Positions 9,307-53,180 of a stretch of 64,000 nt of DNA are shown one piece after another. Source of the stretch: Panorpa germanica (taxonomy: Eukaryota; Arthropoda; Insecta; Mecoptera; Panorpidae); contig OY783208.1 in NCBI GenBank assembly GCA_963678705.1, positions 13,079,782-13,143,781 on the forward strand, in the 5' to 3' direction. Positions within the stretch are counted from its first letter, which is position 1, and every line of letters starts with the position of its first letter. The notes beneath the pieces were generated by a model. The model made no database searches, had not been told where the DNA came from, and saw only the letters and a list, made by a program, of their open reading frames with translations. A program made the position numbers and the translations under genes.

Positions 9307-9656
9307 TGTTATTTTATGTCTATTTTGTATCGACAATATCAGTCAATGTGGCGGCACGAACCACTAGATTTAATAACGACACGTTGTTAAAACAGACAAC
9401 CATAGGTTTTGAGTATAGCAATTGTTTTTAAGTACTCATTCTCTTGTTAAAAATAATAACGATGTACTTTTAGATTCTGTTAAGAATAAACTTGATTTAA
9501 ATTAATAAACATAGTAGTCAAAAATACTACATCAATTATACCAGTAGTGCCATCTACCTTTAACTATGTAATACTGTTTGTTTATATGAGTAGTAAATGT
9601 GAGATTTGGAATAAAGTTTAGTTCGTATCTGTGACTCAAGCGTTTGATTTATTAGA
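9307..9656 (+). repeat. Left (5') LTR of outer Copia element
   Basis: 350 bp; 189 bp longer than the right LTR because a second LTR inserted at 9347. Ends directly against the PBS at 9657. Confidence 0.9.
9347..9531. mobile_element. Solo LTR inside the left LTR
   Basis: 185 bp starting TGTGGCGGCACG and ending ACTACA (TG...CA). It is flanked by TCAA on both sides (9343-9346 and 9532-9535). The right LTR of the outer Copia has the empty site, CAGTCAATTATACC, which proves insertion. No coding sequence. The size and TG/CA ends fit a solo LTR; a small non-autonomous element is the alternative. If the duplication is read as TCAAT, the borders move by one base. Confidence 0.7.
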
Positions 9657-9670
9657 GGTTATGGACCCAG
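9657..9670 (+). other. Primer binding site (initiator tRNA-Met anticodon arm)
   Basis: GGTTATGGACCCAG immediately follows the 5' LTR. Copia-family elements prime from an internal fragment of initiator tRNA-Met (complement CTGGGCCCATAACC); here there is one mismatch. Confidence 0.8.
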
Positions 9671-9765
9671 TATTTTTTTAGTTTTTCTCGCAATTCTCGT
9701 GGACATTATTAGTGAAATAGTCTTTGCAGATTGAGATAAACTGTAATTAACGCAGTGACTGTCGG

Positions 9766-12756
9766 GAGAATTACAGTGAATGGGCTTTCGCGGCTGAGAA
9801 TTTCTTAATTCTGGAGGGGCTGTCTGATTGCATCAAGTCGGAGACAGTACCAGAAGAAATAGGAGCAGCAGGTGACGCGAAAACCAGAGCCAAACTTATT
9901 CTCACAATAGATTCGTCGCTGTACGTACACATAAAAGATGTACAAACGACCCATGAGCTGTGGAAGAAATTGAAGAACCTATTCGATGACTCAGAATTTA
10001 CGAGAAGGATCAGTTTGCTGAGGAGTTTGATTTCCATTCGACTCGAGAATAGTGTTTCAATGACTTCGTACGTGACACAGATAATTGAAACAAGCCAGAA
10101 ATTTAGTGGTACAGGTTTCAACATTAATGATGAGTGGGTCGCATCGCTTTTGTTAGCGGGATTAACAGAAAAATATTCCCCTATGATAATGGCGATCAAG
10201 CATTGCGGCATACCATTGACAGCAGACGCCATTAAAACAAAGTTGTTGGACATGGAAGAAAGCGAAAACGGTGGCGACAGCAGCGCTTTCAATTCCAGTG
10301 GTGTGTTTGCGAGTTATAAGAAGAACCGGAATGTTGGTGGCACTTCAACCAGAGACAATGCCCATATGTCAAAGTCAAAACCAAAGGTCATAACATGCTA
10401 TAAATATAAACAAACAGGGCATTACCGTAATCAGTGTACATTTTCGAACAAAAATTCATGGAATACAAACAATAATGAACGTACAAGTAGTAATGCGTTT
10501 AGCGCCGTGTTCTTGAATGGTGAATTTTGCAAAAGCGATTGGTATATTGACTCCGGGGCGAGTGTTCATCTTACCGCGAACAAAGAATGGTTGTCAAATG
10601 TGTCGCGGGATCTTAAGATTAAGGAAATTGTCGTGGCAAACAAAAATAAAATACCTGTATTATGTACTGGAGATGTGCAGATTACGATAAAGACGCACGC
10701 CAGTGAATACGATATTACAGTGGAAGGTGTATTGTGCGTACCAAAGTTGACTACAAATCTGTTGTCTGTTAGTCAACTTATATCCAAAGGAAACAAAGTT
10801 TTATTTAACAACAATGGTTGTCAGATTTTCAATAAGGCAGGAGTACTTGTGGCTACAGCATGTCTGTTGAATGGTGTATATAAACTGAATATGTCTGAAT
10901 ATTGTTCAGCAACTGCAATGACTGTGTCCAGTGAAGTTTGGCATCGACGTTTAGGTCATGTCAACAGCCAGTATTTGAACAAGATGCAAGATGCTGTAGA
11001 TAGATTGACAATTGATAGTAAGATTGATATGTCCAAATCATCATGTGTCGCATGCTGTGAGGGCAAGCAAAGCCGGTTGCCTTTTCCCAAAGAAGGTAGC
11101 AGAAGTACTGAGTTGTTACATATTGTGCATACCGATCTCTGTGGACCAATGGAAAATCGGTCAATAGGTGGTTCGAGATACTTCATGCTGTTCATCGATG
11201 ATTTTAGTCGTATGACATATATTTATTTCCTAAAAACAAAGGATGAGGCGTTGAAATGCTTTCAACAATACAAAGCAGAGGTTGAGAATCAACTTAATCG
11301 CAGGATTAAGATTTTGAGAAGTGACAATGGGGCAGAATTCTGCAACAGCAAGTTTTATGATTTTTTTATGTCGCATGAGATAGTACATCACAAAACAAAC
11401 CCATACACGCCAGAGCAGAATGGACTCTCGGAGCGATATAACCGGACTATTGTTGAGAAAGCCAGATGTCTGTTGTTCGATGCAGGTCTCGAGAAAAGGT
11501 TTTGGGCAGAGGCTGCACACACTGCAGTGTACTTACAGAACAGGACTGTGACTACATCATTAAATTATAAAACTCCTTTCGAGATATGGACAGATAGAAA
11601 GCCTGATGTAAGTCACCTACGTATTTTTGGTAGCATAATTATGGTACATGCGCTAAAACAAAAGAGATTGAAATGGGACAGAAAAGCTGAAAAGTGTATC
11701 CTTGTCGGCTATTCTAAAGATGTCAAAGGGTACAGAATTTACAACCCGAAGTCTAATGTCATCACTACCAGTAGAGATGTTATAGTATTGGAGAAGATAG
11801 AGACAGAGAATAATCTTCTGGAGGTACAGGAACATTGTTCAGATGATGTGAATACAGTTCCAGTAGGGGAAGAAAATTTGACACTTCAGGAAGATTCACA
11901 TGAACAATCAGATAGCTTGAACATGGATGACAGTGGTGAAATGTATGTACCTTATGAAGATGAAACATTAGATAGCTCAGAGTCTGGTGCAACAGACAGT
12001 GAAGACTCCATAACACTCAACAATGTCAACACAATAAGTGGTCCTCGGCGTAGAAAGCAGCCAGACAGATTTGGATTTGCAAGTGCTTGCATAGAAGATG
12101 ACCAGATGTTCACGGGTGAGATATTGTTGCAAGAAGCCTTGGAAGGATCTGAGAAAGCACAGTGGTTAGCGGCAGTGCAGGAAGAGCTACAGTCGTTCGA
12201 GAAAAATAGTGCGTGGGAACTCGTAGATGTTTCAAAAGATGGTACTATAGTGCAGTGCAAGTGGGTGTTGCGGAAATAGTACGATAGTGAAAACAATGTG
12301 CGTTACCGTGCTCGTCTAGTCGCAAAGGGCTTCACGCAAAAACATGATGTGGACTATGCTGAAACATTTTCGCCTGTAGTGAGACATACAACTCTTAGAC
12401 TATTATTTGCATTGTCTGTAAAGTTAGGTTTAGATGTCACTCATTTAGATGTTAAGACTGCGTTCTTAAATGGTGATTTAGAGGAAACCATTTACATGAA
12501 AATGCCAGATTGTTATAATAGTAGTAGTTCAGTTAGTAAAGTATTAAAACTTAAAAAGGCCATTTATGGACTTAAGCAGGCCTCTAGGGCCTGGAATAAA
12601 AAGGTAGATGATTGTTTGATCAGTAATGGTTATGAAAGATCAAAAATAGAGCCATGTATGTATATAAAGGATAATAACAAATGTAAGACCATTGTAACAG
12701 TCTATGTCGATGATTTCTTTATATTTTCCAATAATAAAACTGAAACTAAGAGCTTG
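9766..12756 (+). pseudogene. Outer Copia gag-pol, 5' part up to the insertion
   Basis: Single frame with Gag (UBN2-type; ENYSEWAFAAENF at the start), knuckle CYKYKQTGHYRNQC and protease WYIDSGASVH (Asp near 10549). Then come the pre-integrase WHRRLGH...C..C and integrase HTDLCGP, RSDNGAEF, EQNGLSERYNRT (D, D and E present), followed by RT with LDVKTAFLNGDL and the catalytic YVDD at about 12703. Defects: the initiator region is degenerate, with stops before 9766 and no ATG found; the second knuckle cysteine is tyrosine; TAG at 12277-12279 lies between integrase and RT; and the frame is cut at 12756 by the inner element. The reading frame resumes in phase at 16966. Confidence 0.9.
12752..12756. 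repeat. Target-site duplication GCTTG (left)
   Basis: Identical GCTTG follows the inner element at 16961-16965. Five base pairs is the Copia length. Confidence 0.9.
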
Positions 12757-13005
12757 TGTTAAAATTAGCAGAGATAAACTATTAATTTATATTAATCAGG
12801 TTTATTATATTTAACAAAATGTACACATGCTTTTATGATGTCACGGAGTATATAAAACATAGTGGTACGGTATTACAGAGTATAGTATTAACTACGTAGT
12901 ATTACGGTATTACAGAGTACTGTATTACCTACAGTACTACCGAGTATAAAAACAAAGATAGAATAGTGTCAATACCGAGAGGTAGCGCTAAATTTAAATC
13001 CAACA
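12757..13005 (-). repeat. 3' LTR of the inner, prominin-bearing element
   Basis: 249 bp. The minus strand begins TGTTGGATTT and ends AATTTTAACA. Contains internal degenerate repeats of ACGGTATTACAGAGTA. Immediately preceded (minus sense) by the polypurine tract AGAGGGAG at 13006-13013. Confidence 0.9.
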
Positions 13006-13013
13006 CTCCCTCT
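13006..13013 (-). other. Polypurine tract
   Basis: AGAGGGAG abutting the 3' LTR on the minus strand. The same octamer followed by the same LTR start recurs at 13257-13250 as a scar behind the prominin frame. Confidence 0.8.
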
Positions 13014-13026
13014 AAATTTAGACATT

Positions 13027-13210
13027 CTAACAACAAATTATAATTAATTGAGTGTCAAAAAACATGAAAATATTAATCAAGTTATAGTACAAGATATTCT
13101 TAATTACACTGATGGCACTTTGATTATCCAAATGTAAACACATAGTGTCTTGTTTATATTCACCAATATCACATAAAACTTGCTTTATCCACATAGTACA
13201 GTATTGTAGA
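13027..13210 (-). pseudogene. RNase H C-terminal fragment of the inner element's pol
   Basis: The minus-strand frame contains MWIKQVLCDIG and LDNQSAISVIKN, matching the Copia RNase H core (WLkqlL..lg...l..DNQSAi.l.kNp). It is followed by a degraded equivalent of the KHIDIKYHF motif. Directly after it come the polypurine tract and LTR, its normal place in Copia pol. Only about 60 codons remain. Its presence downstream of the prominin frame shows that the host sequence replaced the middle of pol rather than the end. Confidence 0.75.
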
Positions 13211-13257
13211 AGTGTCAATTACTAGAGAGCGCTAAATTTAACTCCAACACTCCCTCT
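13211..13257 (-). repeat. Relic polypurine tract plus LTR start (U3 scar) fused to prominin tail
   Basis: On the minus strand AGAGGGAG (13257-13250) is followed from 13249 by TGTTGGAGTTAAATTTAGCG and ends in ATTGACACT. The true LTR start reads TGTTGGATTTAAATTTAGCG and also runs to ATTGACACT. It is therefore a second, truncated PPT/U3 junction of the same family. It is translated as the last residues of the prominin frame, including EGVLELNLALSSN, so that tail is element-derived. Confidence 0.8.
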
Positions 13258-15186
13258 TGTAGCTTGACATGAGCGCAATTGCAGTTGTTATTGTTTGATT
13301 CAACAAGAGGTCCAGGATAAGGATCAGATTTTTGGTAAAGTCCTGACAATTTCACGCTCAAAATAATGCATGGTATAAATAACAAAATGCACCATCTCAC
13401 TCCAGCCCAGAATCCATTAAATGGGTCTAATATTCTGTTACATCCAGCGACTAATATGGAATCATATACATTAGCCACAGGACCGCAAATTCCCACTTTG
13501 AATTTTAATTGACCAACGATATACGAAAAGTAATCCTTAATATTAGTCTCAATTCCCTCTGCAAATGTTCTTATTAACTTTTTAACTAATAAGGTTCCCT
13601 CATTATTTAACTCATCTTCTGCATGCGTAACTTCTTCGATAACTTTGTCTATAGCTTCATTAAAATTGTTATGACCAAACTTTAATTGAACATCTAGTTC
13701 TGCAGCTTTATCTGATAAATATTTGCTACTTGAGATCATAGGGTCAACTAAATTATCCTGGTAAGACCTCAAATGTAAAGCTTGATTTCGTAAAACTAAA
13801 CCAACTTCAGGTTTGTAAGAAGGTGGAAGTTTATTTGCAGCATCAGCCAATTTATCAGCAAGTTCAGCAAGATTGTAGTTAGTAATATTTCCACCCAGAT
13901 TGTCAACATATTTATAAAATGAAAAATCACTGAGAGAGCTAGTTTGCATATCTCTTACTCTATCCTTAGCTACGTCATTCATTATATGTACAGTTCCATC
14001 TAATTTAAAATCGTCCATTAACTCCGATAGTGTTTTATGTATTCCAAACTTGTCAATATATTCTGTAACTGTATCCAAATCCAAAATGTTTTGCATTTTT
14101 AACGTCGTATAAATAGTCTTATTTGTGCGACAATCTTCAATAATATCACTAAGAACAAGCTTGTCTTTATGATCTTTTGAATATAGTTTATCACCTATAT
14201 TCAGTAATTCATCAACTAAACTAAAAAGTTGATCATTCGCAGGATTATTTAGTGGTACGCAAACTCCTCGATATGCAACTAGTCCAATTACAAAATAGAT
14301 TAGGGCAAAGGCAGCTAAAATAGTTGTAGTCAAAAACATCAGTCCGACGCCACACATAAAAAATGTACTTCCAGCTCCTTTATTGCAACAATCATCACCA
14401 TATCCAGAGACACAGCATCCGTGACGTTAGCAAGTTCATTTGATATTATAGCACTGCCGGCATCTAAAGATTTTTCAAGCCCTTTTTGAACTTCATCAAA
14501 ATTGTCGACTAAGATATGTCTAACATGCTTTGCTGTACTCTCCAAATATTTCACAGAATCTCTTGAAGCGATTCTGACAGAGTTAGGAGCTAGTTTAATA
14601 CCATCTTCCATATAACTGTTTGTAACAAAAGCTACAACAACACCAAATAGCATGGCAGTCGCTACCCCTATTAACACCAACCCCAAAATGACTCGTCGGC
14701 AAGTGTTATGTTTTTTTTTTTTTTTTTATAAAAGAGTTGCGTTCTCGCACCACAAGAACCAGCGCAACGACAGCAACAGAAACAAAATCCAATAATTGGC
14801 ATCAAAATAGCAATAAGTAAACCTAGAATAATGATCACAATCAAGAATGCATAGTGTGATGCTAAAGTGGTCCATTGTGTAGCAAAATCACCAACCACGA
14901 AATTGCCGTCCTTCACAGTTAAAAAGCCATCTGGAACTGCTTTTTCACCGACAACTGCATTGAGAACCACGTGTGTCCCATTATACAAGGGTGCCATCCC
15001 CTTAGCGCTGAACGCTGTGCCAGCTTCGTATTTTGCATGGCTTTGGTATTCTGTGAATTCAACTTTGCCTAAGTCGATGGCCCTTTCCAATAACTCGACC
15101 ACTTCTTTCCTATTACTATGTTGACTACTTCCACTACTCAATAATGTAGTTAATATTATAAAAACAAATAGTTTTAATTTAGCCAT
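13215..15186 (-). pseudogene. Prominin-like (CD133 family) cDNA captured in an LTR element
   Basis: Prominins are five-pass glycoproteins of membrane protrusions. The likely start is ATG at 15186: MAKLKLFVFIILTTLLSSG, a signal peptide. An extracellular region of about 90 residues follows, with an N-glycosylation site (NGT), then TM1 and the diagnostic cytoplasmic FCFCCCRCAGSCG. Next are TM2 (LVLIGVATAMLFGVVVAF), loop 1, TM3-TM4 (LMFLTTTILAAFALIYFVIG), loop 2 of about 270 residues, TM5 (WCILLFIPCIILSVKL), and YPGPLVE. Three overlapping frames (15213-14671, 14686-14339, 14357-13215) give two frameshifts, the first at an A-run (14709-14727). Loop 1 has about 100 residues where the family usually has over 200. 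No introns and no 3' poly(A). The family call is firm; function of this copy is doubtful. Confidence 0.88.
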
Positions 15187-15381
15187 TTTTTGATTGTTTG
15201 TCAACATCGTCAATATTTAAGACCAAGAAAATAAACAAAAAGTTTTTCATAAATTTAACACTTATATAAATAAACTACACTAATTATATAATTTTATGAA
15301 GCACAATTAATATTTATATATCACTTTTAATATATACTTCAGTTATATTTGTATATATTTTTATAATAAAGAAATATATAT

Positions 15382-15975
15382 TCATTGAGCACTACATCTC
15401 CCATCTATCGTCCGATGTATCGAACCCGAGGGCATAGTATCAAATACTCGGTGCCCATTGTTCGAACCTTCGGTTTTTGAGATCCACTTCGAACCCGAGA
15501 ACATAGTATCAACTACTCGGTGTCCATTGTTCGAACCTTCGGTTTGTGCAAATCCCTTAGCACAAAGTCTCGATTTGAACCGTGAACCCGTTGACTCTTC
15601 CTTTATTCGGAACAACCATTTACTGCCGATCACTTTGGCATTCGGAGGTTTTTCTATCAATGTCCAGGTTTCATTTTTCTTATGAGCATCAAGCAGACCA
15701 GAGAGCAGCAATGTCCCGTGCCACTCATCGTCCACTTTAAAGCCAATGTTGCGCAGCTTGTGAGCTGTTGGCATAATTTTGCTCACATACTCTTCTATAC
15801 TTTGACATCCACTGAGCAATGTGTTACATAAATCACGCAGAAGACCAACTCGGCGTGTAAGTCCGGAGTCGTCGTACGCTGCGGCCAATTTGTCCCAAAC
15901 TCCTTTGGCCGTGTTTTCCTCTTGGATATGAACGTAATTGATCGGATCAACCAGAAGAATTAACTTTGTTTTCAC
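15382..15975 (-). pseudogene. Gag-RT fusion fragment of the inner element
   Basis: One frame. Residues 1 to about 95 are Copia Gag (UBN2-type: NTAKGVWDKLAAAYDD, LRDLCNTLL, DEWHGTLLLSGL). It then jumps directly to the start of the RT domain (KKNETWTLIEKPPNAKVIGS, KSRLCAKGFAQ). Knuckle, protease, integrase and most of RT are missing. The C-terminal 60 residues (GSNNGHRVFDTMPSGS and a near-repeat) are translated tRNA-like SINE heads, not protein domain. This is a recombination or template-switch product upstream of the prominin frame. Confidence 0.8.
15411..15555 (-). repeat. Two tandem tRNA-like SINE-head copies
   Basis: On the minus strand the unit AATGGGCACCGAGTA(T/G)TTGATACTATG..CTCGGGTTCGA occurs twice, about 70 bp apart. 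It contains a B-box-like GGGTTCGA. The same unit, better preserved, is part of the SINE at 16213-16294. Confidence 0.6.
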
Positions 15976-16019
15976 TTTTGTATCACGTTTTGAATTGAAC
16001 TACGCTCTGCTACCATTTT

Positions 16020-16100
16020 TGAGATCGGGTTCGAACACGATACCCTGGGCGTTTGTGGGCTACCTTGCTAGGCACTGCACCACCTCGGACGCTTTCAGGC
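16020..16100 (-). repeat. Possible third tRNA-like SINE head
   Basis: The minus strand has GGTGGTGCAGTGCCTAGC (A-box-like) followed about 35 bp later by GTGTTCGAACCC (B-box-like). Wording differs from the neighbouring SINE heads, so it is a different family or a coincidence. Confidence 0.4.
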
Positions 16101-16212
16101 ATGTTCAGCCGGTACATGTTATTTACAATGCTTGTAGTTGTTATTATTTGATTCTTACTGTTTATGATCAAACAGCCTGAGACATCAAATTTCACATGAT
16201 AACAACCAAATA

Positions 16213-16294
16213 AACCAGAAAATATATAACTCTTATCCGGGGATCGAACACCTGAGGACATAGTATCAAATACTCGGTGCCCATTGTGTCGTCC
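16213..16294 (-). repeat. tRNA-derived SINE fragment
   Basis: Minus strand starts GACGACACAATGGG, carries the B box GTGTTCGATCCCCGG and ends in ATATATTTTCTGG. Start, B box and end all match the longer SINE at 52928-53200. Confidence 0.7.
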
Positions 16295-16330
16295 CAAGTT
16301 ATATATTTTTATTTATTTTACTTTTTACCA

Positions 16331-16420
16331 ATCCCAGAAAATATATTTCTGACCCGAGAATCGAACTCGGGACCACAGTAGTTCGAGTCAAGCATTATTC
16401 CACTCGACTATCTGTGGGTG
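16331..16420 (-). repeat. tRNA-derived SINE fragment interrupting gag
   Basis: Minus strand: GATAGTCGAGTGGAA (A box), then CCGAGTTCGATTCTCGGG (B box in a perfect T-arm-like palindrome), then AGAAATATATTTTCTGG. It breaks the gag frame that starts at 16553. Confidence 0.7.
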
Positions 16421-16553
16421 ACTCCGGGTTAACCTCAATACAATCCCATAATTCTTCGTGTTGTAGGTATGTTTTCACTGCGAATTGCCAAGTCGAATAG
16501 TTTTCACGGCCGGTTAACTTCTCGATTAATGCCAGTGAATTATTCGATGCCAT
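16395..16553 (-). pseudogene. Gag N-terminus of the inner element
   Basis: From ATG at 16553 the frame reads MASNNSLALIEKLTGRENYS then TWQFAVKTYLQ, the standard start of Copia Gag. It ends after about 50 codons in the SINE fragment. The longer upstream methionine at 16640 lies in leader sequence and is unlikely to be used. Confidence 0.8.
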
Positions 16554-16696
16554 TTTTATTCGTTGAGAACACTTTAAACACAAAAAAAACAGAAACAGTT
16601 TCAACAGCCACGTTTTTTTTTTTAAGGTTATGTTCACCACACTAAAAGTCTTTATCCACTTTTCCGAAAAACACTTACTAAACGTCTCTGGATTTA

Positions 16697-16711
16697 TCTG
16701 GGCCCATAACC
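16697..16711 (-). other. Primer binding site of the inner element
   Basis: Minus strand GGTTATGGGCCCAG directly after the 5' LTR is a perfect complement of the initiator tRNA-Met anticodon arm (CTGGGCCCATAACC). This fixes the element's orientation as minus. Confidence 0.9.
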
Positions 16712-16960
16712 TGTTAAAATTAGCAGAGATAAACTATTAATTTATATTAATCAGGTTTATTATATTTAACAAAATGTACACATGCTTTTATGATGTCACG
16801 GAGTATATAAAACATAGTGGTACGGTATTACAGAGTATAGTATTAACTACGTAGTAGGACGGTATTACAGAGTACTGTATTACCTACAGTACTACCGAGT
16901 ATAAAAACAAAGATAGAATAGTGTCAATACCGAGAGGTAGCGCTAAATTTAAATCCAACA
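16712..16960 (-). repeat. 5' LTR of the inner, prominin-bearing element
   Basis: 249 bp, identical to 12757-13005 except for two adjacent bases. Followed at 16961-16965 by the target duplication GCTTG. Confidence 0.92.
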
Positions 16961-17859
16961 GCTTGAAACAGATTTTATCTAATAAGTTTAGCATTAAAGA
17001 CTTAGGTGATGTTAAACTATGTCTTGGAATGAATGTAACTTTTAACAAAGATAAAGGATATGTAACTTTGAGCCAGCAAACTTATATTGATCAATTATTG
17101 AACAAATTTAATTTAAGTGATTGTAAGGTTGTTGATACACCTATGGAGGTCAAATTAAATGTAAGTAAAGGTGAAGTAGGTGTAAATAAATGTGTGCCCT
17201 ATCAACAACTAATTGGTAGTTTGATGTACCTGTCAGTCTTAACTAGGCCAGATATTAGTTATTCTATAAGTTTTTTGAGTCAATTCAATAATTGCCATAC
17301 TAAACAGCATTGGGAATATGCAAAGAGATTATTGAGATATCTTAAAAGAACTAAATCTTATGGAATAAAATATTGTAAAGATGGTAACTCAGAAATAAGA
17401 GGCTATGTTGATGCTGATTGGGCTTCTAACTCTGAAGATAGGAGATCATATACTGGGTGTTTTTTGTTGTCTCATGGTGTAATATCATGGGAATGTAGGA
17501 AACAGAAATGTGTAGCAATCTCCAGTACTGAATCAGAGTATATTGGTCTATCTGAGGCATGTAGAGAAGCATTATATCTTAAGGAATTACAGTATGAAAT
17601 AACCAATAAGATGTACACAATAAGCATATTCAATGATAACCAAGGCGCACAGAAGTTGTGTGCAAACCCAGTCTTTCATAAACGTACAAAGCATATTGAT
17701 ATCAAATATCATTTTTGTCGTGATTTAGTAAAAGATAAAATTGTTTAAGTACTATATGTGCCAACAGCTGATATGCCAGCTGACATTTTAACGAAAAGTT
17801 TATGTTCAGCAAAGCATTATAAATTTATGTTACTTCTTGTGATAGTTTGTTTAGATTAA
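16961..17859 (+). pseudogene. Outer Copia pol, 3' part (RT thumb and RNase H)
   Basis: After the duplicated GCTTG, the pol frame resumes at 16966. Visible are SIKDLGDVKLCLGMN, PYQQLIGSLMYL, RPDISYS and the RNase H motifs GYVDADWASN, SSTESEYIGLSEA, FNDNQGAQKL and HKRTKHIDIKYHF. A TAA at 17746-17748 interrupts the frame. The C-terminus (PTADMPADILTKSL, the conserved Copia ending) continues in phase to TAA at 17857-17859. It is thus a nonsense mutation, not the natural end. Confidence 0.9.
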
Positions 17860-17902
17860 ATTTGTATTTATCTGTAATAGTGGATATTACGATAAGTAGG
17901 GG

Positions 17903-18063
17903 TGTTATTTAATGTCTATTTTGTATCGACAATATCAGTCAATTATACCAGTAGTGCCATCTACCTTTAACTATGTAATACTGTTTGTTTATATGAGTAG
18001 TAAATGTGAGATTTGGAATAAAGTTTAGTTCGTATCTGTGACTCAAGCTTTTGATTTATTAGA
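17903..18063 (+). repeat. Right (3') LTR of outer Copia element
   Basis: 161 bp, preceded by AAGTAGGGG. Carries the empty site of the solo LTR found in the left LTR. Confidence 0.9.
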
Positions 18064-18068
18064 GTAAA

Positions 18069-19919: not shown

Positions 19920-20177
19920 TTGTTTAATGTGTTAAAGGATACTCAAAGTATAAATTATAAAAATCACAATAATAATTTTTATAAGTGTTTTATTAAAAAT
20001 AATATAAATAACCATATTGATTTAAATAATAATTTAAGCCATATATCATCAAAAATAAACTTGGAACTGTTGGAACAAGAAATAAAAATTTTGTGCATAG
20101 ACTTTTTTAAAATTAAATTATACAATAACGCTCAAGAATATATATATGACTTATCAAAAAATGGAATCGATTTTTGA
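19920..20177 (+). CDS. Unrecognised small ORF
   Basis: About 85 codons, Asn/Lys-rich, overlapping the next gene's ATG at 20146. Its initiator is TTG in the reading given; the nearest ATG is at 19926. It may be the broken C-terminal continuation of the preceding ORF, since only 12 bases separate them. No family recognised. Confidence 0.35.
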   Translation: MFNVLKDTQSINYKNHNNNFYKCFIKNNINNHIDLNNNLSHISSKINLELLEQEIKILCIDFFKIKLYNNAQEYIYDLSKNGIDF

Positions 20178-21000
20178 TTTGGAAGATTTATTATTTGTAG
20201 AAAATATTCATATTGATGATAGCGAGCTATTAAATTTAGATATTGATCCTTCACTTTTTGACGAAGATTTTTTATTAACTGAATCATTAAATGCAGACAT
20301 TGAGATACAGAAAATATCAGAAATTTTAACTTCTTTAAACAATGAGGAGGATTTTAAAAATTTTGAACCTATTAACACAAATTTGACTTCTACTAAATTA
20401 ACAGCAGTTCCATTTTTATTTAATGAAGTACCTATATTATTAAAGGAAGATATGTATTCAATCAAAATAGGATTAAATTGTACTAATCAGTTTGAACCAG
20501 AAATTTATATTTACAATAAATACAATTTTGGGCTAAAATTCAATTTAGGTGATTATTTTGAACTTATAGAGCACATACAGCAAATGATTAATATGTTTAA
20601 TGGACAATTGTTTATACCATCCAATGTTCTAATAGGATCAAATTATAAAATAAATATATTTAATCCAAATAGTATTTCAATTACATCAAATTGTAAAACT
20701 TATATATCCGCGTTTTTAAATATTTATGATTTAATACATATCATGTCTTTAAATTATTATAATAATTTTAGTATTACTCATTTTTCTTGCATGCAGATTA
20801 ACTTATTAAATACATATAATCTATTTTTAAATAAAATCGTAATATGTTTAAAAAATAAAAATATTGGTGTTTCCAAAGAGGTTTTAACTCAATTTTTATT
20901 TCATGAATGTCAAGAAATAAATTATGATGATATACTATTAAGAATGATAATATTATCAAATATTATAATCAATATTATCAAAGTCTTATGTATTGGATGA
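20146..21000 (+). CDS. Unrecognised Polinton protein, 284 residues
   Basis: Open frame. A better start is probably ATG 20161 (MESIFDLEDLLF). The first 75 residues are strongly acidic with hydrophobics (IDDSELLNLDIDPSLFDEDF), resembling an activation domain. The remainder is beta-rich (YSIKIGLNCTNQF, YKINIFNPNSISITS) and may share the repeated fold of the 19353 ORF. It is co-directional with the three ORFs before it and convergent with the minus-strand capsid block. No homologue recognised; a transcription regulator is one possibility. Confidence 0.5.
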   Translation: MTYQKMESIFDLEDLLFVENIHIDDSELLNLDIDPSLFDEDFLLTESLNADIEIQKISEILTSLNNEEDFKNFEPINTNLTSTKLTAVPFLFNEVPILLKEDMYSIKIGLNCTNQFEPEIYIYNKYNFGLKFNLGDYFELIEHIQQMINMFNGQLFIPSNVLIGSNYKINIFNPNSISITSNCKTYISAFLNIYDLIHIMSLNYYNNFSITHFSCMQINLLNTYNLFLNKIVICLKNKNIGVSKEVLTQFLFHECQEINYDDILLRMIILSNIIINIIKVLCIG

Positions 21001-21067
21001 AATATCAAAAATATTGTAATTCCATCATTTATAATATATAAAAATTTAAAATGTATTTTTTTTTTTT

Positions 21068-21442
21068 TTATTTATTTATTAAGGTATAACTATTTCCATA
21101 AGAATCATAGTATAAATTAAAATTACAATCACAACAGTTTCTTATTTGACATGGAGGTTCATCTCTTTGTATTCTTCCTTTGTTATAATGTTTGTAGCAT
21201 AACCGACGCCCCTGCATATTGTGATCTACTTTTAAATGTATTGGAAGCCGGTTCCAGTTTTGTTCAATATCGGTGGAAAACATTATATAATGCAAAAAGA
21301 ACTCTATTGGTAGTAAATGCAGCTCATCGTCCGTAAGATTATCTAGTAAACACTCACTTTCTTTGTATTTTTTTAGAACAGCTCCAACTTTTGAAATCGT
21401 TTTCGAAACTTGTTCATGATCATTTAAAAATTTATAATCCAT
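21068..21442 (-). CDS. Unrecognised Cys-rich small protein
   Basis: 124 codons, intact. The N-terminal part is helical (VSKTISKVGAVLKKYKESE, then LTDDELHLLPIEFF). The C-terminal third has C-x-H and CQIRNCCDC clusters that could bind zinc. It lies just downstream of the major capsid gene on the same strand. No known domain recognised. Confidence 0.5.
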   Translation of the reverse strand: MDYKFLNDHEQVSKTISKVGAVLKKYKESECLLDNLTDDELHLLPIEFFLHYIMFSTDIEQNWNRLPIHLKVDHNMQGRRLCYKHYNKGRIQRDEPPCQIRNCCDCNFNLYYDSYGNSYTLINK

Positions 21443-21505
21443 TATTTGGTTATGAGATGGTTACTCTTTAATGACTTTAAAGATACTAATCATTATTTAT
21501 AATGG

Positions 21506-22713
21506 TTATGTAATTTTATTAAAAATTCCAGATAATGGTTTATACTCAACAATCCGGTCATGTAATATTAAACAATAAGCATGAACGTAGTCTACAATAT
21601 TTTCAGATGTTTCTAATTCAAGCCTTATATCAACTGGAGCAGGTTTTAGAAATTCTTTCTGTTTTGAACAATCTATTACTATTAAAGGTGCATTTTCTTT
21701 AAAATTCTTTAAATTTAAAATGGGATTCGGCTCTTTATCATAGTATGATTTTTGGAAATTAGCATACATTTCATATGCTATTGCATACTTATTATTGTCA
21801 TAATCAAGATTAGGATTATCATAGGGGTAGACATCAGAATTAAGTATAGTTTTACGTTTCTTAAGGTACAAGTGTGAAATTTACTCATATCCTTTGTAAT
21901 ATCGTCTTTACCTTCTCTTTGTAACCCTAATATAACATAGCGTGGCTTTTCAAGTGCTGTAGATGTTTTAATAGACCAAGATTTATTTGTCGTGCGTGGC
22001 AACGCTGGATATTCGTACAAGTCCCAACTTCGAAAGCCAATATACAATGATTTATCGAGTTCTATTGTTTGTAATAATTCTAATTTCTTGTTGTCTGATA
22101 CATTTATATTAGGCATACGCCATTGAATCTTTTCAATTGTTATTGATGGTGTTATTTCTTCCTTTTTACTTATCCAAATTGCGTTATTATCGTTTTTTGA
22201 TCGAATTAATATTAATTCATGCTTTACTGGTAATATAATTTTTTTAAAGTCTTCACAGAATCCAAATATTGTTTTAAGAGGAATACAAACACTAAAATTT
22301 CCGTTATCATCTAATAAATTGTTACTTTTATAACGCCACCCCAAGTTTTCAAGTTGCAACTCATTGTTATTATATGAAACATGTCCTTTCATAGTAGTGG
22401 TTATACCAGGATTTTTATTTGAATCAATTTTAACCGAATTTATTTCATATTTTATACTTTCAAATAGGTATAAAATACCATTTAATATGAAAACAGGTGT
22501 AGATTTTGAAGTGTCTTTTGTTCACCTTACCTTTTTGTTACCTTCAATGTATAAGTAAGATTCCGAGGGTAATGTATATACATTATGTTGATTTATTGGT
22601 ATACGAATTTCGTCATTATATTCATAGCTGGTTGTGTTATATGGACTGTATGAATGTATTTCATATTGGCTTAATGATTCGTCAAAGAGAATTTTATCTT
22701 CAATATTAAGCAT
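21506..22713 (-). pseudogene. MCP: Major capsid protein (double jelly roll), frameshifted
   Basis: Three minus-strand frames together cover a Polinton major capsid protein. 22713-22522 holds the N-terminus (LFDESLSQYEIHSYSPYNT, NDEIRIPINQ, YTLPSESYLYIEG). 22519 to about 21860 holds IEKIQWRMPNI, GFRSWDLYEYPALP and TALEKPRYVILGLQ. 21871-21506 holds YPYDNPNLDYDNNKYAIAY, IVIDCSKQ, PVDIRLELE and AYCLILHDRIVEYKPLSGI. Two frameshifts, near 22520 and 21865, break it. The protein would form the icosahedral capsid lattice. Family assignment rests on several characteristic blocks in the right order and on the capsid-gene neighbourhood. Confidence 0.85.
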
Positions 22714-22868
22714 ATGAGCGGGTATTGTAGAGTATTTATTTTAAATCCTAACGACTTAAGAAACTGTTTATTTTTTAATGTTATCCTCTTAAAAGGCTTG
22801 GTTGGACTACGCTGAGTTTGATTAAACGACGAAATATATATTGTTTTTAAATTATGAGATATACCCAT
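22671..22868 (-). CDS. Small conserved-type Polinton protein between the capsid genes
   Basis: 65 codons. The segment RITLKNKQFLKSLGFKIN resembles the short C-terminal signature of small Polinton proteins, usually ending near LGxKx. Here the frame reads on for about 19 more residues into the major capsid gene start. Its ATG overlaps the stop of the minor capsid gene (TAATG at 22866-22870), suggesting coupled translation or a compact bicistronic message. Function unknown. Confidence 0.5.
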   Translation of the reverse strand: MGISHNLKTIYISSFNQTQRSPTKPFKRITLKNKQFLKSLGFKINTLQYPLICLILKIKFSLTNH

Positions 22869-23605
22869 TATTGAATCTTTCGTATGTGTAATCTGCAGGA
22901 AATTTTTTCTTTTCTAAAATTGATAAGTTCACCTTCTTTATTAACAATTTTTATAGAAATATTATCTATTTTCTGTACAACGATTGGAAGATAAATGATT
23001 TGCTTTGGAATTTCTATTATCTTATATCCTGGTGGAACAGCAGGTGAAAACTCATGAATTGTGTGTACTAAACGTCCGTTTAGATAGGAACCGGATGTAA
23101 TATTACATTCAATACGTATGTTATTTACTTTAATAATGTTTACCGGTAAGTTAGATATATGTAATTTATTAGGGTCTAATACTTGCTTATTAAATCCTAG
23201 TAATGAACCAATACAATTATCTTTCGAAAAATCAATTTTTTCCGTACATATTATCTCACTTTGAAGGGTATTTGTATTTGCAGTTAAATTTAAAAATACT
23301 TCTTTTATTTGCTTATCAGCTTTGTCCTTAAATTCGCTGTTGTGTTTTATTACTCTAGAATCACCAATGCCTAACCTTAAATATTCCTGAATATCTTCCA
23401 ATTCATATGAACCCACTGGTATTGAAATAACTTTACCATCTCCATAATAAAATTTATTGTTAGTGTCGTAAATGTTTGGTATTGAATTAAATGTCTGAAA
23501 GTCGACTATTCTCAATTCAAACTGTTCATCATACAAATCTATAGGAGGAAAAATATCGGCGCTTAATACGGATTCATTTCCAATAATTGTAAATGTCATA
23601 GACAT
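22868..23605 (-). CDS. mCP: Minor capsid (penton-like) protein
   Basis: 245 codons, intact; ATG at 23599 (MTFTIIGNES) is the likelier start. Blocks typical of the Polinton single-jelly-roll minor capsid are visible: FPPIDLYDEQFELRIVDFQT near the N-terminus, GSYELEDIQEYL, DNCIGSLLGF, and the C-terminal GYKIIEIPKQIIYLPI followed by NFRKEKISCRLHIRKI. It would occupy the fivefold vertices. Neighbours are the protease upstream and the small LGF protein downstream. An A/T homopolymer run (23607-23624) just before the start is the only irregularity. Confidence 0.8.
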   Translation of the reverse strand: MSMTFTIIGNESVLSADIFPPIDLYDEQFELRIVDFQTFNSIPNIYDTNNKFYYGDGKVISIPVGSYELEDIQEYLRLGIGDSRVIKHNSEFKDKADKQIKEVFLNLTANTNTLQSEIICTEKIDFSKDNCIGSLLGFNKQVLDPNKLHISNLPVNIIKVNNIRIECNITSGSYLNGRLVHTIHEFSPAVPPGYKIIEIPKQIIYLPIVVQKIDNISIKIVNKEGELINFRKEKISCRLHIRKIQ

Positions 23606-23695
23606 ATTTTTTTTTTTTTTTTTAACCTTTCACGATAAGCTTAGATACAGTAATAACAAAAATAAAAATAAAATTCATGCATTTATACGAATATG

Positions 23696-24046
23696 TTATT
23701 TATTATAAATATAAGAATTTGAATACAAAAAGTGTAAGCATAAATGTCCACAATTTACAGTATTAAATTTTTGAAATCTATCATAGTTATATTGAATAGT
23801 ATTACTTTTAAAGTATTCAATTGCTTCTATTGGAGGTTGAAGGTTACCAAAACTATCAAAATATAAAATATTTTTATTTCTTTTTATGTAAGCTACCCAA
23901 TGTGTTCCTGCTGATGTTTTATCATCTAAATTTATTATACCAGATTTATTTATATACATTTTTTTAGGCAAATTATTTCTCATGAATACCCCTCTAAAGT
24001 GAGGGATATTGAATTTTTTTGCATATTTTTTTAAATCAACATCAGT
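23696..24046 (-). CDS. PRO: Adenain-like cysteine protease (C5/Ulp1 fold)
   Basis: Open frame from about 24046 to 23696. An ATG occurs at 23983, but the frame and likeness continue upstream (LKKYAKKFNIPHFRGVFMRN), so translation probably begins inside the end of the preceding gene. Motifs: GTHWVAYIK (catalytic His), YFDSFGN (acidic residue), QYNYDRFQKFN and NCGHLCLHFL (catalytic Cys with oxyanion region). It processes capsid proteins in adenoviruses and is assumed to do so in Polintons. The C-terminus after the Cys block is short but within family range. All catalytic residues are present. Confidence 0.8.
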   Translation of the reverse strand, partial: TDVDLKKYAKKFNIPHFRGVFMRNNLPKKMYINKSGIINLDDKTSAGTHWVAYIKRNKNILYFDSFGNLQPPIEAIEYFKSNTIQYNYDRFQKFNTVNCGHLCLHFLYSNSYIYNK

Positions 24047-24050
24047 AGCT

Positions 24051-24896
24051 TTAACGGAAGTTTTTTGGATACGGATTAATATATAATCCTAACCCTTTTT
24101 TATAAGGTTTTAAATAAATTCCTTTGCCAGATTTTTCAATAGCAATTGCCTCCATAGTTTGGTTATGTTTTTGAGTTTCTGCTAACATTTTTTTTGCATC
24201 CTTTGCCTCATTTATTGCTTTTGCAACACCTGCAACACCACCTGCCAATCCACCTAGTGCTGATAATCCCGCAAATAATGGAATTAGAAATGGTAGAAAA
24301 CCACCTACTTTTGGTATAGGAATTATTTTTAGTTTATTAACTTTAAATTTTGACTTTTTATTAATTGATTGTTTTGCGGCTTGTGATGCAATTTTAATAG
24401 CTTTTGACACACTTTTAGGATTATCAGGGTTAATTAAAGTATATTTTAGCGCACCACGAGCATTAAGAATAGCTTTCTTTAATGCTGCTATACTATGCTT
24501 GACCTTTCCGCTACCCTTTATTTTCTTCTTTTTAATTTTTTTATTTCGTTTCAACCCCATTCCAAGTTTCGGTTTTATATTCATGATATTAGCAACAAGT
24601 AATGATGCTAAACGTTCACTTAACTTTGAATCTTTAGAAAAATATTGATTCCAAGCTTTCTCAATCAGTATTTTATCAGCTACGTGTCTTTTACTTAAAT
24701 CTTTATAGCGGTGATATGCAATGTCATGTTCTTTGCAAGATGAGTCCAATGCATTAACTCCTTAAACTCCATGGTTTAAACGTTTTATTAAACGTGTTCC
24801 AGGACCGCAATAGTTGTACCCAGGCAAATGCAATTCAAAAGGTAATTTATTGATTAGTTTATCAATAAGTCCATCTCCCTTCTTAACTTTTATCAT
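24051..24896 (-). pseudogene. PLA2-like (parvovirus VP1-type) capsid-associated protein, one stop
   Basis: 281-codon frame from ATG 24896 interrupted by one TAA at 24762-24764. Before the stop it has LPGYNYCGPGTRL, the calcium-binding loop of the VP1-type phospholipase A2. After it come DSSCKEHDIAYHRY (catalytic His-Asp pair) and KHVADKILI-like helices. Then follow a Lys-rich region (NKKIKKKKIKG), a hydrophobic Ala/Gly/Leu segment (LIPLFAGLSALGGLAGGVAG) and a C-terminal YLKPYKKGLGLYINPYP. The layout of PLA2 domain, basic linker and membrane-active helix suggests membrane penetration during entry. The domain is known in parvoviruses and some Polintons; the role here is inference. Confidence 0.75.
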
Positions 24897-25009
24897 ACTG
24901 AACAAAGTATGTGCTTTCAACCAATTTTATACTTTATAATATTTTAATATATAAAGATTAAACATTTAAAATGTATTCTATTAGTTTATAACACATGCCT
25001 GGTTAAACA
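24897..25009. promoter_or_regulatory. Divergent promoter region
   Basis: Only 113 bp separate the minus-strand capsid block from the plus-strand ATPase. It holds TATATAAAG on the plus strand (about 24950-24958) and TATAAAGTATAAAA read on the minus strand (about 24926-24940). Each is at a plausible distance from its ATG. Promoter activity is inferred. Confidence 0.4.
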
Positions 25010-25710
25010 ATGAAGTTTGTAAAGCAAAAACAAACTCTTTCTGTAAAGAATGTAGAAAATCAAAATAATTGTTACATTATTAATCAAAGACATGGACCAC
25101 TTTTACCAAACGACATTAGATGTATTATTTGTGGACCTGCAAACTGTGAAAAAACTAATGTTATGTTTAAGCTGATTAAACATCTAAATGGGTTGCGGTT
25201 TAAAAATATATACATTTATTCAAAATCTTTATATCAACCAAAATATCAAATGTTACAACAAATTTTAAATAAAATTAAAGGTATGGGATACTATACATAC
25301 TCTGATAACGATGAGATTATTAGACCTGAAAATGCAAAACCACATTCAATTTTTATTTTTGATGATGTTGCATGCGATAAACAGAATAATATTCGTAATT
25401 TCTTTAGCATGGGCCGTTACAATTTGATAGATTGTATTTATTTATGTCAGACATATAGTAAAGTTTAAAACAGTTGATACGAGATAATACTAATTTTATT
25501 ATATTATTCAAGCAAGATGACTTAAATTTAAAGCATATATATGACGATCATGTCAACTTTGACTTTCCGAGTTTTCAAGAGTTTAGGCAAGTTTGTAATT
25601 TATGTTGGAACTCTAATAAATATGCATTTATGGTAATAGATAAAAATTGTGACTTAAATAAGGGGCGATACAGAAAAGGATTTGATATGTTTTTAGATAT
25701 AACCAAGTAA
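25010..25710 (+). pseudogene. ATP: Packaging ATPase (FtsK/HerA type), frameshifted
   Basis: First frame 25010-25468, second about 25467-25710; a one-base loss near 25465 shifts the frame. Visible are IICGPANCEKTN (Walker A region), HSIFIFDDVACDKQ (Walker B), FFSMGRYNLIDCIYLCQTYS (sensor-like), and after the shift IRDNTNFIILFKQDDLNLKHIYDDHV. The P-loop has Glu where the second invariant Gly is expected, explained by a single G-to-A change, so ATP binding would be lost even without the frameshift. It would pump DNA into the capsid. Divergent from the capsid operon-like block. Confidence 0.85.
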
Positions 25711-25870
25711 CTTTTGCAATAATAATCAGTGTTGAGGTAACCATCTTGATAATAACATACGCACCTACACATTTATATCAACGTAATCTTAATAAACGTA
25801 GAAATTACGTTACTTTACGTTTAAATATACGTTAATTTACGTTAAAATATATGTCACAGTACCTGTTACC

Positions 25871-27134
25871 ATGTTTAAATCCAAGAAATATACAAAAAAA
25901 GCAAACAAAAAAAATTATGAAGGATTAAATAGAAATAATAAACATAAAATTGATAATATTAGTAGTAATAAACATAAATATTAACAAATAACACGTGATA
26001 TTATTAAATCAAGCGATTCTATAAGACAAAAGTATCTTGCATTAAAACTAGGGAAATCTGAGGCACAAAGGTACCTTGACAAACAGCTTGAACCAATAAC
26101 TACACCACTAAATATACCAGCTAATAAAAGTACTTCAAATATTAAATTAGTGCAACCAATCAAAACAAGATATTGATACAAAACCGTATGACTTAAAGGT
26201 TAAAACAATTAAATATAAATTAGATAAAATATTAAAAGAACCACTAGACACCACATCGACACCAGAAAATATATCATTAGCAGGTGAAAAACCAAGTATA
26301 ACGCAAGAACCAGCAATGGAACTTAGTCAGTTAGATGATGAGGTTTTTGAAACAAATGAACCCTTAGAATATAGTAGAGTACAAGATCCAAACTTATTTA
26401 AGACATCTATAGAACTGTCTGAAGTTGAAGAGAATCTTAAAAAACAAGTTGATAAATACGCCTTTCAATATTTAATTGATTTTAATAGACGAGAAGGTGA
26501 TCCTAGTATATTTGATCATACATTTGGTATAAATTTAGAAGATGGTAATTTAATATTAGGAAAAACACTGGTTACGTTTGATAAAGAGGGTATTATAATA
26601 GGAAATAAAAAATATAAGTCATCTCCCGGATTATATGAATTGCTTTTTAAAATAGATCCAAGCGCAAATATTTATAGTCAGGAAGATTTAGAGAATTATA
26701 AAACAATTTTAACTGATTCAAATGCACATAGAACATTATATTTACCTAGTGGTAAAACTAAATCTAACAAAGGTATAAAATATAAAAAAATTTTATCGCT
26801 ATTATTTCCTCCTCAAACAAAATTAAGTGCCCCAGCGTCTTCAACATCATATTCTTCAGAAAGATTACAAAACGTTCGATCAAGACTTTTGCAGAGTACG
26901 TCCTCAGTTGGTTTACAAAATAAAAAACGTTTAGGAGGTGGCTTAAGTAATTTAATACCAAACTTTATGACTTTAAATAATAATTAAAAGGATTTCATTT
27001 ACTGGGATGACCCAAATGAATTAGTTAAAAGATTACGACTACTTATTAGTTCAAAAATGGCGGGCAATACATCACATGATAATGAAATTATTTCAGTAAT
27101 TGAAGAGTTAAAAGAAGCTAATATTATTATATAA
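25871..27134 (+). pseudogene. Conserved Polinton protein (WDDPNELV type), broken
   Basis: Start ATG 25871. The frame is stopped by TAA at 25982-25984, shifted near 26165, open 26181-26984, stopped by TAA at 26985-26987, then in phase again to TAA 27132-27134. Blocks: IRQKYLALKLGKSEAQRYL, PSIFDHTFGINLEDGNLILG, YKSSPGLYELLF, YKTILTDSNAHRTLYLPSGK and the C-terminal YWDDPNELVKRLRLLISSKM...NEIISVIEELKEA. This domain set (I believe Pfam DUF8207) is typical of Polinton-borne genes. Function is unknown. Position after the ATPase and before the integrase fits the element type. Confidence 0.75.
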
Positions 27135-27190
27135 ATACTTAAACACATTTCCTTCTTTTTCATTAATTTATAACTACTCATGTAAGTAAC

Positions 27191-27418
27191 ATGACTATTA
27201 ACAAATTTGGAGTACACATACATAAGAAAAAAATTACTCGGCACGAAACAGTATTAAAAAATGATTTAATTATTATAGATAGACGTTTAAAAGCTGCAGA
27301 GAAAGATATTCATGATGCTTATATTAATAACTTTCAAAACTTTATTGAAGTAAATAAAAAAATTGCAACATTAATTACAGAATTAAAAACAAAACATAGT
27401 TTAGATATTAGTTCTTGA
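27191..27418 (+). CDS. Small conserved-type Polinton protein
   Basis: 75 codons, intact, ATG 27191 (MTINKFGVHIHKK). Lys-rich, helical (VLKNDLIIIDRRLKAAEKDI, then a coiled-coil-like heptad pattern to the end). It lies 28 bp before the integrase gene on the same strand, the place of a short helical protein in many Polintons. Function unknown; possibly a virion or integrase-associated factor. Confidence 0.55.
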   Translation: MTINKFGVHIHKKKITRHETVLKNDLIIIDRRLKAAEKDIHDAYINNFQNFIEVNKKIATLITELKTKHSLDISS

Positions 27419-27446
27419 TAAATTGTGTATAATAATAATAATAAGT

Positions 27447-28376
27447 ATGAGCAAAACAAAAATAGGTATAATTAATGAGTTACATAAACCTGCACGTAAA
27501 AACTATGAACGTAGACATGTAATTATTAAAGGATTAAATGAGAGCTGGCAATCTGATATAGTAGAAATGATCCCGTATGCAAAAGAAAACAAAAGTTACA
27601 AGTATTTACTCACAGTAATTGATATATTTTCTAAATATGCATGGGCAGTTCCAGTAAAATCAAAATCAGCTAAAGATGTTACTGTTGCATTTGAAAATAT
27701 TTTATTAAAAAATAAGAATAAGGTTCCGAAAAACTTACAAACAGATAACGGAAAGGAATTTTATAACTCTGAATTTAAAAAAGTAACAAATTATTATGGC
27801 ATAAACCATTATAGTACATTTAGTAATACGAAAGCATCGATTGTTGAAAGATTTAATAGAACTCTAAAAAATGCCATGTGGAAAGATTTTAGTATAAAAG
27901 GCAACTATAATTGGATTAATAACATTATTGCACTTGTTAAGAAATATAATAATTCTCATCATTCAACAATTAATATGAAGCCATCTCAAGTATCAATAAA
28001 AAATGAAAAAGAATTATTAGGAAATGTATACAATAGAATAAAAAGGGTCGGTTTAAGTCGAAATAAAGTTGGAGATTATGTTCGTTTAAGCAAAACCAAA
28101 TCATTATTTGCAAAAGGGTATACTCCTAACTGGGGTACCGAAATATTTACTATATCAAAAGTACAACTAACTAATCCAGTCACATATTTACTTAATGATT
28201 CTCATGGCCAATCAATTGCAGGCGCGTTTTACAAACAAGAACTACAAAAGACAAAATATCCAGATATATATCTAGTTGAGAACGTTTTACAGAAAAAAGG
28301 AAAAAGAGTTTTTGTAAAGTGGTTAGGTTTAGATAAATCTCATAACAGTTGGATAGATGCTAAAAATATTGTATAA
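27447..28376 (+). CDS. INT: Retroviral-type integrase with C-terminal chromodomain
   Basis: 309 codons from ATG 27447 (MSKTKIGI); the upstream methionine at 27423 adds a run of Ile and is less likely. The DDE core shows D37 (WQSDIVEM), D100 (TDNGKEF) and E134 (SIVERFNRTL). Then come a beta-rich DNA-binding region (VGDYVRLSKTK, FTISKV) and a chromodomain at residues 270-309 (YLVENVLQKK, VFVKWLGLDKSHNSWIDAKN). The frame is intact. It joins element ends to target DNA in the nucleus; chromodomains can steer insertion to marked chromatin. It is the best-preserved enzyme in this Polinton and could act in trans. Confidence 0.92.
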   Translation: MSKTKIGIINELHKPARKNYERRHVIIKGLNESWQSDIVEMIPYAKENKSYKYLLTVIDIFSKYAWAVPVKSKSAKDVTVAFENILLKNKNKVPKNLQTDNGKEFYNSEFKKVTNYYGINHYSTFSNTKASIVERFNRTLKNAMWKDFSIKGNYNWINNIIALVKKYNNSHHSTINMKPSQVSIKNEKELLGNVYNRIKRVGLSRNKVGDYVRLSKTKSLFAKGYTPNWGTEIFTISKVQLTNPVTYLLNDSHGQSIAGAFYKQELQKTKYPDIYLVENVLQKKGKRVFVKWLGLDKSHNSWIDAKNIV

Positions 28377-28441
28377 CATTTTAAATAAATAAAACTATTG
28401 GTTATTATAAATATGTATTTATTTTTACATTATAAATATAC

Positions 28442-41760: not shown

Positions 41761-41795
41761 TATTTTATTTTGATGATTTAATAACAGGTTCTTTT

Positions 41796-52930: not shown

Positions 52931-53180
52931 ACGACACAGTGGGCGAGAGCATTGATGCTTGACGCCGACTGCTGTGTCTTCGGGTTTGATCCCCGGACCA
53001 GATATATATTTTCTGGGTTTGGTTATTATGAACTTATATTGATTATGGTCATACATAATCGTACAGTTATTAGGCAGTGGTGTAGCCCACATATATGAGG
53101 CCACGACACCATAAATACTGCCAACATTGAAGGAGGTCGTCGGTGATAGGACTCAGCATCGGAAATAAGCCGACGTTAAA

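Follow-up and report, generated by a model that had tools for sequence, protein, structure and literature searches.

How a spliced copy of a cellular membrane-protein gene came to lie inside a long terminal repeat (LTR) retrotransposon, and whether the resulting chimera moves as a unit, is the question raised by a 64,000-nucleotide stretch of the genome of the scorpionfly Panorpa germanica (contig OY783208.1, positions 13,079,782 to 13,143,781), hereafter the window. The element in question occupies positions 12757-16960 of the window, and its sense strand is the minus strand, a correction to the first-pass annotation that drew attention to it. It is bounded by two 249-bp LTRs with TG...CA ends, the 5' LTR at 16712-16960, which holds two units of a 37-bp repeat, and the 3' LTR at 12757-13005; the two are 99.2% identical, and their two mismatches adjoin each other. 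The 5-bp target site duplication GCTTG is present on both flanks (12752-12756 and 16961-16965), a Copia-type primer binding site (PBS), GGTTATGGGCCCAG, directly follows the 5' LTR (16698-16711, minus strand), and the polypurine tract (PPT) GAGGGAG directly precedes the 3' LTR (13012-13006, minus strand). The LTRs with their two differences, the duplication, the PBS and the PPT had been listed in the first-pass annotation and were found again; the PBS, described there as a perfect match to the initiator methionine tRNA, is of the Copia type, which pairs with an inner part of that tRNA. Together with Pfam matches to Copia-type gag and reverse transcriptase and the position of the integrase before the reverse transcriptase in a coding relative, these features identify the element as a non-autonomous Ty1/Copia LTR retrotransposon. 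Protease, integrase and most of the reverse transcriptase were not found in it by Pfam and tblastn searches or by DNA comparison, and the absence of the first two implies that it should not move by itself.

Between the gag/pol and RNase H fragments, and in the same orientation as previously noted, the element carries a prominin sequence (PF05478, E = 7.8e-87 for the largest piece), which is an intronless cDNA of the host's own gene. This gene was located in the same 464-Mb assembly, on contig C8. Eleven of the 12 host exon pieces compared with the window copy are 96-99% identical to it; the twelfth reaches only 89% because of an 11-nt insertion, specific for this copy, at a run of 17 A (14711-14727) that shifts the reading frame. 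Comparison of the exon junctions, an approach suggested by the first-pass annotation, showed that 12 GT-AG introns are precisely missing from the captured copy, one of about 18 kb in the 5' untranslated region (UTR) and eleven in the coding part, and another copy of the element (L039) aligns with the joined host exons without any indel. The captured sequence consists of the first, 5'UTR exon (15208-15415, 98% identical to C8:15860922-15861129), a first coding block that ends with TDAVSL (14407-15186, 97.7% identical to the host exons) and a second coding block from GYGDD to PGPLVES (13297-14406, 98.6%), all on the minus strand. In a phylogenetic tree of prominins, the captured copy is placed between Diptera (support 100) and other insects (support 99), as fits a scorpionfly. 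The COX1 of this assembly, on contig C249, agrees with that placement, being 99-100% identical to proteins from Panorpa and Cerapanorpa across 98% of its length.

The limits of the captured sequence are informative. Of the 11 copies compared at the 5' end, 6 begin to match the host gene about 4 nt into TCAGTT, a motif that resembles the insect initiator; in the window copy and in L042, L047, L049 and L051, the match starts some 14 nt later, beside a deletion. The 3' limit is the exact end of a host exon (GTTGAATC|gtaagt), and an alignment of insect prominins begins to diverge at the same point, after PGPLVE(S/A). Contrary to what had been supposed, the gene is not captured in full: the C-terminal tail beyond PGPLVES is missing, and so are about 209 internal residues (257-465 of protein P0001). 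The joint left by the internal loss (14405-14408) has a 1-nt overlap, alters the reading frame throughout the family and shows no splice signals. Exon skipping as its cause was rejected given that both ends lie inside exons without GT-AG, and such a joint fits a jump of the reverse transcriptase. Besides this 1-nt overlap, AATAT at one of the RNase H joints, read by eye, may be another short overlap at a switch point. The prominin lacks the 3' poly(A) expected of a copy of the LINE (long interspersed nuclear element) type; the sequence instead passes into 38 nt (13259-13296) followed by a second PPT. A 28-mer from these 38 nt was found at 15 places and a 22-mer at 16, all of them in copies of the element, and the reversed control patterns gave no matches; a host exon that could be their source was sought in the same assembly and none was found, the 22-mer having no outside match at up to two mismatches. 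No target duplication of its own was noticed around the prominin cDNA, although no search was aimed at one.

The chimera is not a single occurrence. A DNA search with the window prominin, in which all 20 candidates were scored, returned 34 matches, 13 of which are host exon pieces, whereas the remaining 21 belong to 17 element loci, the window included. Judged by their flanks and duplications, these loci represent 13 apparently independent sites on several contigs: two loci on contig C6 are segmental copies of a single insertion, and four on contigs C121 and C189 (L044, L046, L052 and L053) are segmental copies of another. The upstream flanks of the latter four are 99% identical; these loci may have arisen by segmental duplication or may be repeats left unplaced in the assembly. 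Nine sites have both LTRs together with a perfect 5-bp duplication (the window copy, L040, L042, the L044 group, L045, the L047 group, L049, L050 and L051), the duplication of L051 being weak as it lies in an AT repeat; at the other four (L039, L041, L043 and L054), the element is truncated or no clear duplication is seen. Hence the further copies with the same LTRs and prominin that the first-pass annotation proposed to look for do exist, and its view that the chimera itself had been reverse-transcribed and inserted holds repeatedly. With L054 set aside, the exact 16-mer across the internal deletion joint is present in 14 of the 16 prominin loci; L041 aligns across the joint but is altered, and L053 breaks off before reaching it. 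A shared joint suggests that a single capture and a single deletion most likely preceded all copies. At least 28 places match the LTR at 92% identity or more, a lower bound given that 40 of 672 candidates were scored, and 27 of these are in prominin loci; the exception, L055, shows only an LTR and the gag start within the 5 kb examined. The insertions are recent, with LTR-pair differences ranging from 0 of 187 to 9 of 248 positions over 11 pairs; L040, L042, L050 and L051 show no more than one LTR mismatch each. A mobile gene-carrying unit is thus real, and the observation is stronger than could be known from the window. A further arrangement was noticed in L054 (C3:16536500-16540000), where two tandem 889-bp units each contain an inverted 185-bp prominin piece beside an LTR piece; these prominin pieces are 100% identical to the window prominin.

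Proteins for the movement of this defective element are likely to come from a closely related Copia family, represented by L057 and L058, the first 130 gag bases of which are identical to those of the element. The LTRs of these loci align to that of the element with a gap of about one 37-bp unit. Both contain long open frames: L057 is colinear with residues 368-1317 of the Copia protein P0129 and L058 with residues 450-886 of P0146. The pol sequence of L058 has at least 71 matches at 92-100% identity (60 of 3046 candidates scored, so that this is also a lower bound), 54 of those 71 being free of stops. Such coding relatives are, on these counts, numerous and young. The related family postulated in the first-pass annotation was accordingly found; that it supplies the proteins is our inference.

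The fate of the captured gene was assessed in 12 independent copies over 620 codons, skipping the columns with fewer than five copies; the segmental duplicates (L044, L048, L052 and L053), the fragment L054 and L055, which has no prominin, were dropped. Changes private to one copy comprise 93 nonsynonymous and 32 synonymous changes and 7 stops; under the same mutation spectrum, neutrality predicts 7.8 stops and an N:S of 0.73:0.21 (ratio 0.83, p = 0.39). Changes common to some copies amount to 15 nonsynonymous, 5 synonymous and 3 stops, and the pooled copy-copy pN/pS (nonsynonymous to synonymous polymorphism) is 0.99. By contrast, only 2 nonsynonymous as opposed to 11 synonymous fixed differences separate the host gene from all copies (ratio 0.05). 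Changes among the copies thus look neutral, which lends no support to the suggestion in the first-pass annotation that a mobile prominin could affect the host or the particle. No purifying selection is seen in the copies since their common ancestor, and amplification without visible selection is, by itself, no evidence of function. On the simplest reading of these counts, the host gene acquired the fixed differences while under constraint, and the prominin decays freely in the element, most likely as a passenger. The alignment of conserved positions does not discriminate, with 5 of 61 otherwise invariant prominin columns changed in the captured copy compared to 0-8 of 60-69 in 29 other prominins. 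A PDB sequence search, for which only the second prominin block was used, gave no match. Sets of copies at odds with the tree (among them L042, L051, L045 and L047-L049) have some stops and synonymous changes in common, and three synonymous changes occur in all copies but one; these may reflect recurrent change or exchange between copies.

Taken together, we consider it highly probable that a defective Copia RNA took up a copy of the spliced prominin mRNA and spread with the proteins of a helper. Under this scenario, a Copia-family RNA with neither protease nor integrase and only a small part of the reverse transcriptase would have been packaged in a virus-like particle, where the spliced host prominin mRNA was copied during reverse transcription. 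The enzyme would have entered this mRNA at the end of an inner exon, or on an RNA spliced beside it, and copied nearly back to the cap, skipping about 209 codons either then or in a subsequent round, and would then have switched to a Copia/SINE-like (short interspersed nuclear element) RNA. The product, retaining the LTRs, PBS, 5' leader and PPT, would be a non-autonomous element moved in trans by the proteins of the coding family. Several observations weigh against this scenario or parts of it. That the capture ends exactly on an exon end is not predicted by pure template switching, and the 3' joint is obscured by the 38 nt beyond it, which were found only in the elements. The independence of L041, L047/L048 and L050, which entered related repeats, their flanks being 74-82% alike, rests on their differing duplications, for which they were counted apart. 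Taken singly, block A has a copy-copy pN/pS of 0.70 and block B one of 1.29, both being point estimates. Furthermore, the fixed synonymous difference from the host, about 2.8%, exceeds the 0.6-1.6% depth of the copies, so that capture of the reference allele just before the burst would not be the whole story; a diverged allele or the gene of another population could have been captured, which would explain the excess, or the element may have been under constraint before the burst.

The exon-end limit could be explained if an ancestral Copia element, lying in or behind the prominin gene, gave rise to a fusion transcript into which the last captured exon was spliced and which was then packaged, with a switch at the 5' side joining the rest of the element. 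A spliced fusion as the starting point is the model proposed for gene transduction by retroviruses. Prominin stopping precisely at the splice site, the 38 nt beyond it, followed by a PPT and the beginning of the LTR of a diverged Copia, and the failure of the first 22 of these nucleotides to match anything outside the elements at up to two mismatches would all be in line with such a transcript. However, other than in the elements, the assembly shows no remnant of such a sequence, a switch at the 5' side would be required here too, and the exon end may be a coincidence or the 38 nt a short unrecognised exon; we regard this variant as possible but doubtful. That the prominin frames are maintained by selection, with a protein serving the element or the host, appears very unlikely. 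Of 16 loci, three (the window copy, L039 and L040) have the 403-aa frame of the second block intact (an open-frame listing gave 403 aa for L041 and L043 as well, but direct reading showed that it is not whole there), six have an open first-block frame of 262-281 aa, and the pN/pS of block A is 0.70. Nevertheless, the overall ratio and the number of private stops given above are those of unconstrained sequence, three further stops are shared by some copies, the frame break is family-wide, with the A-run insertion added in the window copy, the frames are broken or shortened in most loci, and the few open ones fit the youth of the family. A processed prominin pseudogene inside one element copy, or an assembly chimera in the window, the two outcomes that the first-pass annotation named as fatal to its claim, is scarcely credible: apart from the loss of introns, nothing points that way, and both were rejected in view of the same joints recurring at 13 sites on several contigs with different duplications and, for the pseudogene, the lack of poly(A) at the prominin end.

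Several known systems resemble the one described here. Acute transforming retroviruses are defective elements with host cDNA that are moved by a helper; neither an envelope nor a selected function is seen in the prominin-carrying element. The plasma membrane H+-ATPase is a multi-pass protein, and part of its gene has also been taken up by an LTR element. This is maize Bs1, which contains parts of cellular genes (PMC13317346, PMC5408686, PMC7264820); it likewise carries part of a membrane-protein gene, the difference being that it belongs to a plant and combines segments of three genes. Plant frames transduced by LTR elements are present in one or a few copies, as stated in the abstract of a review. 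LTR-mediated retroposition in metazoans, including insects, is cited as established, with reference to Tan et al. 2016, Genome Res (PMC5408686, PMC8232201, PMC9674220); there too, spliced host mRNA is copied between LTR-element sequences by template switching and comes with LTRs, whereas here a family at 13 sites shares one deletion joint and the captured piece spans from near the cap to an exon end. In Plutella xylostella, the Pxyfem sequences (PMC9674220) are retrocopies of Masculinizer joined to an LTR-retrotransposon gag, for which template switching was proposed. They are likewise multicopy, partial spliced cDNAs in an insect; however, they form tandem arrays on the W chromosome, no LTRs were identified, and they produce silencing RNAs with a role, in contrast to the dispersed, LTR-bounded insertions of Panorpa, which have no known role. 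In the titles and beginnings of abstracts of the papers listed on prominin and retrotransposons or on gene capture by insect and animal LTR elements, no prominin-carrying LTR element was found. The novelty claimed in the first-pass annotation, that such a capture is not described, therefore survives narrowly and fails in its broader form, given the reports of gene capture by LTR elements in metazoans including insects and the precedent of Bs1. What sets this case apart is that the element has dispersed to 13 sites in an animal whose assembly also contains the source gene and possible helpers. It provides a clear natural record of how an LTR retrotransposon in an animal acquired a host mRNA and afterwards multiplied it, and the presence of the source gene, potential helpers, the common joint and many descendants in one assembly makes the fate of the captured gene traceable. 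Whether host cDNA present in many copies directs small-RNA silencing at the gene it came from could also be tested on this family. By analogy with Pxyfem, the family might act on host prominin through sense transcripts of some of the 17 loci, or through antisense small RNAs from copies in inverted surroundings such as L054, placing the gene under Piwi or siRNA control; we rate this as improbable, and if true, it would represent a self-made switch based on sequence homology, with the possible twist that the captured allele may come from another population or species.

The remainder of the element is a mosaic. In sense order, the LTR and PBS are followed by the gag start, an additional tRNA-like/pol piece, the middle part of gag and the start of the reverse transcriptase, and then by SINE-like repeats, prominin, the 38 nt, a second PPT with an LTR start, an RNase H fragment, and the terminal PPT and LTR. 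The gag start (MASNNSLALIEK..., 16410-16553, minus strand) contains DUF4219, and it is from its ATG that the 130 bases shared with L057 and L058 are counted. The additional segment (15996-16409, minus strand) consists of tRNA-like SINE sequence and a displaced pol piece. The other prominin copies that extend over this position do not have it here, and their gag continues; most of it is present in L040 in another arrangement and part of it in L051 near the 3' end. The middle part of gag (15695-15995, minus strand; PF14223, tblastn) is fused directly to the reverse transcriptase start (15535-15694, minus strand; PF07727). The buried PPT and start of a related LTR (13211-13258, minus strand) are 88% identical to the element's own LTR end over 49 positions. 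The RNase H fragment (13094-13196, minus strand) is a weak protein match (2 of 120 Copia proteins at E = 0.003-0.005) and is 97% identical at the DNA level to the same part of L057 and L058. Neither an Rfam search of 12700-17000 nor ARAGORN on the whole window returned a match. A 74% copy of the tRNA-like repeat found around 16327-16416 is located elsewhere in the window, at 52935-53023.

The prominin-carrying element is itself inserted in the pol region of an older Copia element in the plus orientation (approximate limits 9307-18064; Pfam, protein alignments). Alignments with relatives of the outer element (P0106-P0108) break off at 12756 and continue, in register, from 16945; for P0107, the alignment runs to 12756 (residue 1016) and starts again from 16945 (residue 1010), the first 16 bases of the second match being the LTR end, followed by pol. 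The best named match of the outer element is a Copia protein of the moth Eumeta japonica, at 91% identity over 83% of the query; proteins from other contigs reach 84-86%. A moth-like protein in a scorpionfly could result from horizontal transfer. Elsewhere in the window, a row of genes at 20000-32000, with an integrase near 27405-28376 and polymerase-like frames at 28571-31600, appears by eye to be Polinton/Maverick-like, a search having covered the integrase. There are also a 35-bp tandem repeat at 41793-42527 (21 copies, 81% matches) and an 8-bp tandem repeat (ATATAAGA) that extends over about 4.4 kb at 55470-59841, is 99% uniform and contains a run of N close to the right end. In the assembly at large, COX1 yields, besides contig C249, 19 further matches on other contigs, which are probably mitochondrial insertions.

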